Made by a program: the position numbers and the translations under genes
Shown here: positions 52,866 to 57,915 of the stretch, one piece after another
Layout of the letters: every line of letters begins with the position of its first letter
Position numbering within the stretch: position 1 is the stretch's first letter
Assembly: GCF_014699055.1 (NCBI RefSeq)
Contig: NZ_JACXAC010000001.1
Location: 1 to 64,000, forward strand
Direction: 5' to 3'
DNA length: 64,000 bases
From: Hymenobacter armeniacus
Lineage (GTDB): Bacteria; Bacteroidota; Bacteroidia; Cytophagales; Hymenobacteraceae
The notes under the pieces: generated by a model
What the model was told of the DNA's origin: nothing
What the model saw: only the letters and a program-made list of their open reading frames with translations
Databases searched by the model: none

Positions 52866-53993
52866 ATGCTCAATTCCGGCCCGCTTATTTCGCTTTCCGA
52901 CGCCCTGCTCACCGACGTGCCCACGCCGGCCCTGGCGCCCCGCACGCACTCGGCCAAGCTGTGGCTGCCCCAGCGCGTGGTGTTCACCCCCGACGCGCTC
53001 GACGAAGAGTTTGGCCAGCAAATTCTGGCCCGCGTCTCGGCCCAAAACCTGGAAGTAGAGCTGCTGAAAAGCAACCGCCTCACCGGCCTGCGCGACCCCG
53101 GCGGCGACGTGCGCGCCACCTACCGCACCGCCAAAAACACCCTGGCCGTGGTGAAGGCCCCCGCCGGCGCCCTGCGCCTGCAGCCCACCCCGCCCTCGGC
53201 CGACTGGCAGCTCAACCTCGCCGAAGGCTGCCCCGCCCACTGCCAGTACTGCTACCTGGCCGGCTCGCTCAGCGGCCCGCCCGTGGTGAAGGCCTTCGCC
53301 AACCTGCCCCAGCTGCTGGCCAACACCGCCAGCTACGAGCGGCCCGGCCGCGTCACCAGCTTCGAGGCCAGCTGCTACACCGACGTGCTGGGCATTGAGC
53401 ACCTCACCGGCAGCCTGGCCGAAGCCGTGCGCCACTTCAGCCAGCGCGAAGGCGCCCAGCTGCGTTTCGTGAGCAAGTACGACCACATCGACTCCCTGCT
53501 GGCCCTGCCGCACCGCGGCCGCACGCGGGCCCGCTTCTCCCTTAACGCCGAGCCCGTGGCCCGGCGCCTGGAAGGCGGCACGGCCTCGGTGGAAGCGCGC
53601 CTGCAGGCCATGCGGCGGCTGGCGCTGCCGGTGGCCCAGGGCGGCGCCGGCTACCCGGTGGGCGTGGTGCTGGCGCCCATCATGCCCATTCCCGACTGGC
53701 AGCAGCACTACACTGAGCTGCTAGACCGCCTGCAACAAGCCTTCGATTTCGACTGTGACCTTACCGTGGAGTTCATCACCCACCGCTTCACGCCCGGTTC
53801 CAAAGACGTGTTGCTGCAATGGTACCCCAACACCAGCCTCGACCTGGCCGAAGAAGGCCGCGCCGTGAAGCGCAACAAGTTCGGCGGCCTCAAATACGTG
53901 TACCAGCCCGAGCAGATGAAGGCCATGAAAGCGTGGTTCTACGCCGAGTGGCAGCGCCGCTTCCCCGCCGCCCCGGTGCATTACTGGACGTAA
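52866..53993 (+). CDS. SplB-like radical SAM protein
   Basis: A 375-residue radical SAM enzyme of the spore-photoproduct-lyase family. The iron-sulfur motif C-x3-C-x2-C is 'EGCPAHCQYCYLAGSL' near residue 125; upstream is 'RTAKNTLAVVKAP', downstream 'FEASCYTDVLGIEHLTGSL', 'LRFVSKYDHIDSLL' and a C-terminal 'FITHRFTPGSKDVLLQWYPN'. SplB repairs UV-made thymine photoproducts in spores, but this lineage makes none, so the substrate may be other DNA damage. Upstream DNA is AT-rich and has the dyad TGACG-7 nt-CGTCA at ~52839-52855. Confidence 0.88.
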   Translation: MLNSGPLISLSDALLTDVPTPALAPRTHSAKLWLPQRVVFTPDALDEEFGQQILARVSAQNLEVELLKSNRLTGLRDPGGDVRATYRTAKNTLAVVKAPAGALRLQPTPPSADWQLNLAEGCPAHCQYCYLAGSLSGPPVVKAFANLPQLLANTASYERPGRVTSFEASCYTDVLGIEHLTGSLAEAVRHFSQREGAQLRFVSKYDHIDSLLALPHRGRTRARFSLNAEPVARRLEGGTASVEARLQAMRRLALPVAQGGAGYPVGVVLAPIMPIPDWQQHYTELLDRLQQAFDFDCDLTVEFITHRFTPGSKDVLLQWYPNTSLDLAEEGRAVKRNKFGGLKYVYQPEQMKAMKAWFYAEWQRRFPAAPVHYWT

Positions 53994-55415: not shown

Positions 55416-57149
55416 TTAGCGCCAGTCGTAGGACACGCCCAGCAGCACGCCCGCGCCCAGCAAGTGCCGGGGCGTGAGGCCGGAAACCGGCTTCGCCAGG
55501 GAGTTGAGGAAGTACGTGGCGCTGGGCTGGGCCAGCAGCTCCAGGCGCGGGGCCACGCGGTAGCGCACGTCGAGCCCGCCGCTGAGCGACAGGTTGAGCG
55601 CGCGGTTGGGGCCGTCGGCGCCCGGGCCCCAGGCGTGGCGGGCCGCGTCGGAGCCGGCGCTGTTGCCGCCCAGATAAAAAGCGGCATCGGCCCCGCCGCT
55701 GAAGGCATAGCTGAGTTTTTTGGTGGCCCCGAGAACGTAGCTCAGCCGCACCGGCACCGTGAGGAAACGGTAGGTATCGCGGTAAGTGCTTTGCGTGAAG
55801 ACGTAAGTGGTGACAGGTGGCCGCGGGTTCGATACCACCACCGGCGGAATCGACGAGGTAATGGCTTTTACTTCGTCATAAGTCCGCTGAAGGGCGTATT
55901 CCTGGTAGCCCAGGCCGGCGCTCAGGCTCCACCGGCCGCTGAGCACGCGCCGCACTTGCAGCGCCAGCGCCAGGCCAGTGCCGGCTTGTTCCTGCTGTTC
56001 GCGCACGCTACCTGCCGTGTCAAACGACCTGATGGTGTTTGGCGTTGGCGAGCTAGGAGCGTTATATGCTAGGTCATTGGATTGGCTGAGGTGCCGGTAG
56101 GTGTAAGCTGGTCCGCCCACCACCTGCACTGCCCAGCGGCGCACAGGCACCGCCGGGAGCCGAGGCAGCGTGTCGGCCGGCAGGGCCAGGCGCAACGCTG
56201 CCATCTCCACGGGCGACAGCGTTGCGCGGCGCAAGGCCAACGGGCTCGTCCACGTGGATGAAGCTGCTTCGCGGCTCGAAATCCCGGCGTCGGCCGCTGC
56301 CTGCGTGCTGCCCATTTCGCCGTTGGCTAAGCCGCTCTGGCTGCCTGGCGTTGCTCCGATATCATTCATGCGGCCCGCCTCCTCAGAAGCGGCCGCACGA
56401 GGCGCAACCACCGCCACCGTGACAGCGGCAACGTTCACCGGACGCCCGGCCGGGCCCGGCCGGGCAGCACTTGCCGCTTCCTGGTCTTCTGTCGCTGGCT
56501 TGACCAGCGCGGCGGCAAAGCGGCGTTTCCGGGCCGAACGGCCAACCATAGCTATTCCCTCCGTGCGGCCAGTCGCGGTTTTCACGGCCGGCCGCGAAGC
56601 TGCCGTAATAGCGCCGGAAGCGACTACCGCGCCAGTACTACCAGGTCCAGAAACCGGTCCGGTACCATCCCCAGCCACAGCATTCCTTGGCGTAGCCGTT
56701 CCCGGCGCCGCTTCCCCGGCCGCTGCAACGGCTGGAGTTGCGGACGTTGGCGCACTGGAAGAGGCTGCATCCGAAGCCGGCGCAACGCCCGCCACGGGCC
56801 CCTCGCTGGCTGAGCCTGAGCGCGCGGCATCGGGCGCCTGAGCAGTGCCCGGCTGCACTGTGGCCAGCTGGTTTTGCTGGTCGGCCCGCCTGGCCGCCTG
56901 CTGCGCCAGCTCGCGGCGCTGGCCCACGCGCCACCACTGCCAGCCGACCGTTCCCACCACGGCCAGTAGCAGGAGCAGCAGCGCGGCGGCCGTGCGTTTG
57001 TGGCTGCGCTTGCGCAGCTGGGGCGCGGCCACCGGCGGCGGAAGCTGCGCCCGAATGTTGGCCCACAGCGGCGCGGGCGGCTCCTGGCCGTGGTCGGCCA
57101 AGCGGCGGCGCAAGGCATCGTACAGGTCGTCGGGTTCGCGGTCGGTCAT
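55416..57149 (-). CDS. Anti-sigma-like inner-membrane segment fused to outer-membrane beta-barrel
   Basis: A 577-residue protein. Residues 1-50 are cytosolic and carry 'PPAPLWANIRAQLP', the P..LW..I...L motif found at the start of Bacteroidota anti-sigma-like proteins. A membrane helix lies at ~53-70. A ~250-residue Ala/Ser/Pro-rich linker follows, and from ~335 to the end alternating beta-strands ('RRWAVQVVGGPAYTYRHL', 'SLSAGLGYQEYALQRTYDEV', 'LLGAGVLLGVSYDW') match a small porin-type barrel. It overlaps the ECF sigma gene upstream by 4 bases (ATGA). The likely role is envelope sensing and control of that sigma factor. Confidence 0.78.
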   Translation of the reverse strand: MTDREPDDLYDALRRRLADHGQEPPAPLWANIRAQLPPPVAAPQLRKRSHKRTAAALLLLLLAVVGTVGWQWWRVGQRRELAQQAARRADQQNQLATVQPGTAQAPDAARSGSASEGPVAGVAPASDAASSSAPTSATPAVAAAGEAAPGTATPRNAVAGDGTGPVSGPGSTGAVVASGAITAASRPAVKTATGRTEGIAMVGRSARKRRFAAALVKPATEDQEAASAARPGPAGRPVNVAAVTVAVVAPRAAASEEAGRMNDIGATPGSQSGLANGEMGSTQAAADAGISSREAASSTWTSPLALRRATLSPVEMAALRLALPADTLPRLPAVPVRRWAVQVVGGPAYTYRHLSQSNDLAYNAPSSPTPNTIRSFDTAGSVREQQEQAGTGLALALQVRRVLSGRWSLSAGLGYQEYALQRTYDEVKAITSSIPPVVVSNPRPPVTTYVFTQSTYRDTYRFLTVPVRLSYVLGATKKLSYAFSGGADAAFYLGGNSAGSDAARHAWGPGADGPNRALNLSLSGGLDVRYRVAPRLELLAQPSATYFLNSLAKPVSGLTPRHLLGAGVLLGVSYDWR

Positions 57150-57718
57150 GGCAATTGGGGGTGATGGTGGGCCGCCAGGCGGGATTCGAGCAGGCGGCGG
57201 GCCCGGGCCAGCTGCGATTTGCTGGTGCCTTCGGCAATGCCCAGCAGTTCAGCAATTTCCTGGTGCGAGTAGCCCTCCACGGCGTAGAGGTTGAGCACCG
57301 TGCGGTAGCCGGGCGGCAGCGTGGCCAGCAGGGCCAGCAGGTCGTCGGCGGCCAGCTGCTCCACGGCCGAGGGCTCGGGGGCGGGCAGGTCGGCCGCTAT
57401 TTCGTCCAGCGCCTCGCCGCTGGGGCCGGGGTGGCGCAGGCGGTGCTGCTCCAGGGCGTGCAGCGAGGTGGTGACGGCAATGCGCCGGGCCCAGGCTTCG
57501 AAGGGGCCCTGGCCGCGGTATTGGTCGAGGCGGGTGAAAATTTTAACGAACGTGTTTTGCAGGGCGTCCTCCGCTTCGGCCCGGTTGGGGCAATAGCGCA
57601 GGCACACGCCCATGAGGCCATAGGCGAGGCGTTGATAGAGCCGGTGCTGCGCGGCCGATTCGCCCCGCCGGCACGCCGCCAGCAAGGCCTCATCAACCGG
57701 GGCAAGGGAAGGCGGCAT
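57146..57718 (-). CDS. ECF-type RNA polymerase sigma factor
   Basis: A 190-residue sigma-70 family factor of the extracytoplasmic type. Region 2 is seen in 'RLYQRLAYGLMGVCLRYCPN', 'EAEDALQNTFVKIFTRLDQY' and 'PFEAWARRIAVTTSLHAL'; region 4 in 'LPPGYRTVLNLYAVEGYSHQ' and 'EIAELLGIAEGTSKSQLARA'. It is the first gene of a two-gene unit with the barrel-fused anti-sigma-like protein, the usual arrangement for such pairs. Its target promoter is unknown. Confidence 0.92.
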   Translation of the reverse strand: MPPSLAPVDEALLAACRRGESAAQHRLYQRLAYGLMGVCLRYCPNRAEAEDALQNTFVKIFTRLDQYRGQGPFEAWARRIAVTTSLHALEQHRLRHPGPSGEALDEIAADLPAPEPSAVEQLAADDLLALLATLPPGYRTVLNLYAVEGYSHQEIAELLGIAEGTSKSQLARARRLLESRLAAHHHPQLP

Positions 57719-57915
57719 GCAGTAAAAGTGTGAAGACGCCGGGCTGTACAGCCCCCGGCATCTGAACCCATGACCGGCGGCCGGCCGGCGCGGTTGCGTG
57801 GCCCCTAAGTTATTTTGAAAAATTCACGCGCCGACGCCCCCGAACCATGCGGCCAAGCGCCCGCCGCCGTATTCTTGCCGCACCATTGCTGCCTCGCCTA
57901 ACCTGCCCCCACGCC

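Follow-up and report, generated by a model that had tools for sequence, protein, structure and literature searches.

Two described sets of Bacteroidales sigma/anti-sigma pairs are closest to the locus considered here. The first is the EcfO/Reo pair (of Bacteroides fragilis and Phocaeicola vulgatus), whose 'unusual', envelope-spanning anti-sigma factor was published in 2022 (PMC9308784; also PMC13114119). The second is the Dma family of Bacteroides thetaiotaomicron, published in 2024 and 2026, in which an N-domain, a membrane helix, a disordered tether and a barrel are joined in a protein encoded beside an ECF21-type sigma factor (PMC13088901). Genetic proof that the anti-sigma factor represses its sigma factor exists for Bacteroidales pairs with this architecture (PMC9308784, PMC13088901), and the published pairs respond to envelope stress and have lipoproteins among their regulon (PMC9308784, PMC13088901, PMC13114119); the EcfO/Reo pair of P. 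vulgatus is reported to be induced in the gut as well as by antibacterial toxins (PMC9308784, PMC13114119). Within Dma3 of B. thetaiotaomicron (PMC13088901), sigma and anti-sigma factor form one chain with the same helix-linker-barrel arrangement.

Here a locus of Hymenobacter armeniacus is compared with these systems. It lies within a stretch of 64,000 nucleotides (termed here the window), where it occupies the minus strand at 55416-57718. The upstream gene (57146-57718) encodes a 190-residue ECF sigma factor resembling Das and EcfO, as identified from its open reading frame, from its clade, from matches to Pfam Sigma70_r2 (E 5e-13) and Sigma70_r4_2 (E 6e-19), and from an above-cut-off match to NCBIfam TIGR02937. 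The downstream gene (55416-57149) encodes a 577-residue protein whose open reading frame, overlap with the sigma gene, ECF neighbour and AlphaFold2 model mark it as a putative anti-sigma factor of the Dma/Reo type. The two genes overlap by four bases (ATGA, 57146-57149). An original prediction, made from the DNA alone, had described just such a sigma factor with a downstream anti-sigma-like gene, and the coordinates, strand and Pfam and NCBIfam matches all agree with it; it had, however, also treated the arrangement as a departure from standard sigma/anti-sigma systems, and in this it was anticipated by the published EcfO/Reo (2022) and Dma (2024, 2026) proteins. Because the architecture is already published and because the sigma factor belongs to the Dma-linked clade (support 100/98), the pair represents a further case of a known design: very probably, an anti-sigma factor bearing an outer-membrane barrel holds the ECF sigma factor, and release of the latter induces the operon together with exported proteins.

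The downstream protein has the same four parts as Dma1 and Dma2, which are likewise found in Bacteroidota next to ECF sigma factors (Das1 and Das2). Residues 1-45 (57015-57149, minus strand) constitute a cytosolic N-domain, the putative sigma-binding part, which is recognized by its conservation and by two short helices (residues 8-19 and 26-35) in an AlphaFold2 model built from 29 Hymenobacter orthologues; the model's confidence is moderate in this domain (pLDDT 60-75). The motif PP..LW..I falls here at P24/P25, W29 and I32. It is followed by an inner-membrane helix at residues 53-71 (56937-56993, minus strand), with a hydropathy peak of 1.89 that recurs at the matching place in 29 of 29 orthologues and with a long model helix at residues 48-96. 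A periplasmic tether, residues 72-338 (56136-56936, minus strand), is mostly disordered, as judged from pLDDT, composition and length: residues 100-300 lack structure in the model (pLDDT 30-40), and the linker, 267 residues long by hydropathy, is rich in alanine (22%), serine (11%), threonine (10%) and proline (10%). Each of these parts had been foreseen in the original prediction, which spoke of a cytosolic P..LW..I start, a single membrane helix at about residues 53-70 and an Ala/Ser/Pro-rich linker of about 250 residues.

The C-terminal part, residues 339-577 (55419-56135, minus strand), had been expected to be a beta-barrel. Full-chain structure prediction bore this out by placing eight strands, mostly with pLDDT above 90, within residues 339-576, and a Foldseek comparison of the model with solved structures returned the OmpA barrel as the top match (9fzc, E 2e-8, probability 1.00, TM 0.71 relative to the target); further matches were NspA, OmpX, Ail and OmpW. 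The window protein's own match to Pfam OMP_b-brl_2, over its C-terminal 239 residues, is weak (E 7e-4, under the cut-off), which would be in keeping with a soluble periplasmic beta domain, and thus with an ordinary single-membrane anti-sigma factor carrying a large sensor. That interpretation is improbable given that the eight long, confidently modeled strands reappear, along with the other parts, in a second AlphaFold2 model (of the 26%-identical Hymenobacter persicinus homologue L128), that the Foldseek matches include OmpA, NspA, OmpX and Ail, and that homologues do pass the Pfam barrel cut-off (L069 with 47.6 bits and L039 with 30.1 bits). Within a barrel loop, most orthologues conserve a C-x-C (TEGSACxCQ); it is absent from the window protein, which lacks any cysteine.

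Mean identity of the orthologues to the window protein is 76% for the N-domain, 46% for the helix, 42% for the barrel and 17% for the linker; linker length, in contrast, stays within 235-334 residues across 29 orthologues, so that its sequence drifts freely while its length is kept. By our own estimate, an extended tether of about 250 residues measures several periplasm widths and is therefore long enough to bridge the periplasm. Hence, one and the same chain is predicted to extend across the envelope from the cytosol to the outer membrane, as is the large anti-sigma factor encoded downstream of the ECF gene in EcfO/Reo, which is predicted to reach from the cytoplasm to the surface. The FecA/FecR/FecI system is similar insofar as an outer-membrane barrel governs an ECF sigma factor through an inner-membrane anti-sigma factor, but its barrel is a separate and much larger TonB-dependent receptor, whereas here the eight-stranded domain is part of the anti-sigma factor itself. 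A FecR-type periplasmic domain was not found in the window anti-sigma factor, whose sole Pfam match is to an outer-membrane barrel, nor is there a TonB-dependent receptor gene next to the pair.

By analogy with Reo and Dma, residues 1 to about 45 of the anti-sigma factor would hold the ECF sigma factor at the inner membrane; the single helix would cross that membrane and the disordered tether of about 250 residues the periplasm, and the OmpA-like, eight-stranded barrel, inserted in the outer membrane, would sense the state of the membrane or a ligand there. Disturbance of the barrel, or its failure to assemble, could then free the sigma factor through a change along the chain, through cleavage, or through loss of the anti-sigma factor. 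Membrane-bound anti-sigma factors are usually inactivated by regulated proteolysis, and it is quite possible, at somewhat less than an even chance, that this chain too is normally cut in the manner of RseA or FecR, with the barrel and linker being severed from the anchor by site-1 cleavage before an RseP-type intramembrane protease acts. Genes for two M50 (RseP-type) proteases are present in the genome, and a long disordered linker would be accessible to proteases; on the other hand, no conserved cut site is evident (residues 73-100 and 100-300 are just 17-18% identical between orthologues), and the tether is never shorter than what is expected of a bridge across the periplasm, being at least 235 residues long. 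The original prediction's notion of signaling without a protease relay is hypothesized here in a fuller but rather doubtful form: an intact chain might transmit an outer-membrane event along its disordered tether, with the assembly or displacement of the barrel as the signal and with Hymenobacter-specific surface lipoproteins, including a serpin, as the output.

Whether the two genes belong together functionally is addressed by comparison of loci. At each of the 38 homologous loci inspected in relatives, an ECF gene adjoins the homologue on the same strand, usually with an overlap of 4 or 8 bases; the adjacency therefore exceeds what chance would give, in agreement with the earlier suggestion that the overlap in the window is a sign of a functional pair. 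Most Hymenobacter loci share the order phzF (on the opposite strand), sigma, anti-sigma, hutI and spl (the last two on the opposite strand); Pfam and NCBIfam matches identify the same three neighbors (hutI, spl and phzF) in the window. The alternative, that the genes are mere neighbors and that the long product is some membrane protein with no part in sigma control, is highly improbable: it has to contend with this adjacency, which also holds across the class, with the overlaps of 4-8 bases, with natural sigma-helix-linker-barrel fusions in two NigD-carrying genomes (L201 and L202) and with the repression proven genetically for Bacteroidales pairs of the same architecture (PMC9308784, PMC13088901). 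We infer that the direction of control in the Hymenobacter pair would be the same. The spl gene of the window (52866-53993, plus strand), which adjoins hutI in many Hymenobacter loci, belongs to the spore photoproduct lyase family (Pfam SPL, E 2e-85); Hymenobacter is not known to sporulate.

The original prediction had proposed a search for the same architecture beside ECF genes. A collection scan with a 7-row alignment (an 18-row alignment having no stretch that was conserved enough) recovered Hymenobacter loci. In a class-wide search of Bacteroidia, matches were obtained in 54 of 395 sampled genomes, and 17 of 20 inspected loci carry an ECF gene paired with a helix/linker/barrel protein; the other three (L163, L164 and L167) are plain barrels lacking an ECF neighbor and were set aside. 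This search undercounts, because a broader query gave Dma-like matches in 11 of 11 NigD-carrying genomes. The H. armeniacus genome itself has four such pairs: the one in the window and those at C7:133 kb (L039), C6:37-40 kb (L091) and C6:226 kb (L097). Two more of its ECF genes (L094 and L087) belong to the same clade but are paired with an anti-sigma-like protein that has no barrel.

Barrel-less anti-sigma factors thus occur beside sigma factors of the same clade at six loci (L053, L054, L055, L059, L094 and L087), and the barrel is therefore not essential to every member. Its loss or replacement seems to have happened on more than one occasion, since the 189-289-residue relatives beside same-clade ECFs at L053, L054, L055 and L059 share the N-domain and helix but have no barrel. 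Other variants were also seen. The N-domain motif occurs as two tandem copies in a 353-residue protein that lacks a barrel and lies beside a same-clade ECF gene (L094:1708-2769, minus strand), and again in a protein that keeps its barrel (L170:2803-4437, minus strand). Dma3-like fusions of ECF sigma factor, helix, linker and barrel were seen only at L201:394-2037 (minus strand) and L202:1501-3204 (plus strand), both in NigD-carrying genomes; in the window, unlike in Dma3, the sigma factor is a separate protein.

Phylogenetic analysis of 86 sigma factors, with the root drawn at the midpoint, groups the window sigma factor with all the Dma-linked ECFs, including NigD-adjacent Bacteroidales ones, apart from 21 other ECFs (support 100/98). 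Two natural sigma/anti-sigma fusions fall on the Dma-linked side of this tree, in which L206 and L207 were entered as Dma-linked, a search for a Dma match neighboring them having found none. Carriers of NigD (PF12667) served as stand-ins for ECF21 reference sigma factors. On this basis the pair is probably of the Dma/Reo (ECF21-type) kind, where 'ECF21-type' denotes a clade shared with the NigD-adjacent stand-ins.

Upstream of the pair, a candidate ECF-type promoter, GCAAC-N17-GGTCA, is located at 57771-57797 on the minus strand, with 52 bases separating it from the sigma start codon; it is the only match in the window, against 0.27 expected. Both halves are conserved in 29 of 29 aligned Hymenobacter upstream regions, the motif being present at all of L101-L129 and thus invariant in 28 further Hymenobacter loci. 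In position, half-sites and spacing it matches an ECF promoter, which suggests that the sigma factor autoregulates its operon; similarly, the EcfO gene is induced along with its regulon. A search before the Dma-linked sigma genes of Bacteroidales and of other Bacteroidia did not recover the motif, and it was likewise not recovered before those of the Hymenobacter paralogues. A paralogous Hymenobacter pair (L039, L056, L057, L058, L061 and L062) has another motif, GCAGC-N17-TGTC, and its presence at all six loci suggests a separate promoter specificity.

A freed sigma factor would bind GCAAC-N17-GGTCA and thereby induce its own operon along with exported proteins, most of them surface lipoproteins. 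The genome contains 25 copies of the motif and 24 of a reversed control, so that copy number alone is no evidence; the evidence used was instead position upstream of exported genes, a spacer control and recurrence across species. Eleven of the 25 copies are followed at a distance of 24-109 bases by the start of an exported protein, as compared with 0 of 24 reversed controls (Fisher p 2.4e-4), and a variant with a 21-base spacer has 4 copies rather than 25. The corresponding background rate, 4.6% (binomial P 4e-9), was estimated at random positions of the 64 kb window alone, with exported proteins being called, as in the counts, from a simple hydropathy criterion. The predicted target sites in the genome (G000) are C3:184071 (L227), C3:259652 (L228), C3:611062 (L230), C4:265514 (L233), C4:272470 (L234), C4:624761 (L237), C5:382404 (L241), C5:512958 (L242), C7:533295 (L245), C8:472444 (L248) and C10:71950 (L249). 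By our own reading of the sequences, nine of the 11 exported products have a lipobox, one of these nine being a serpin, and another of the 11 resembles a small outer-membrane protein. For six of the 11, the motif also accompanies the orthologue in further Hymenobacter genomes. Because 11 of 25 copies precede exported-protein genes, the predicted regulon consists of the pair's own operon and of exported, mostly lipid-anchored proteins.

Surface lipoproteins also belong to the EcfO regulon, whose NigD lipoproteins the targets predicted here from the motif resemble in kind; a search of this genome for NigD_N (PF12667), however, found no match. Relative to Dma1/Das1 and Dma2/Das2, the Hymenobacter pair resides in another genus, probably answers to another signal, has its own promoter motif and is predicted to control other lipoproteins, and sequence similarity to the window protein is low outside of the N-domain and barrel. 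What the locus adds is the pair's own conserved promoter and a predicted target set made up mostly of surface lipoproteins.

The pair extends the known cases of envelope-spanning anti-sigma factors to the environmental genus Hymenobacter, and the design is widespread in Bacteroidia. A conserved promoter combined with a short list of predicted targets offers reporters with which to hunt for the signal and to address the question of proteolysis, and hence to approach how dual-membrane anti-sigma factors may sense events at the outer membrane.
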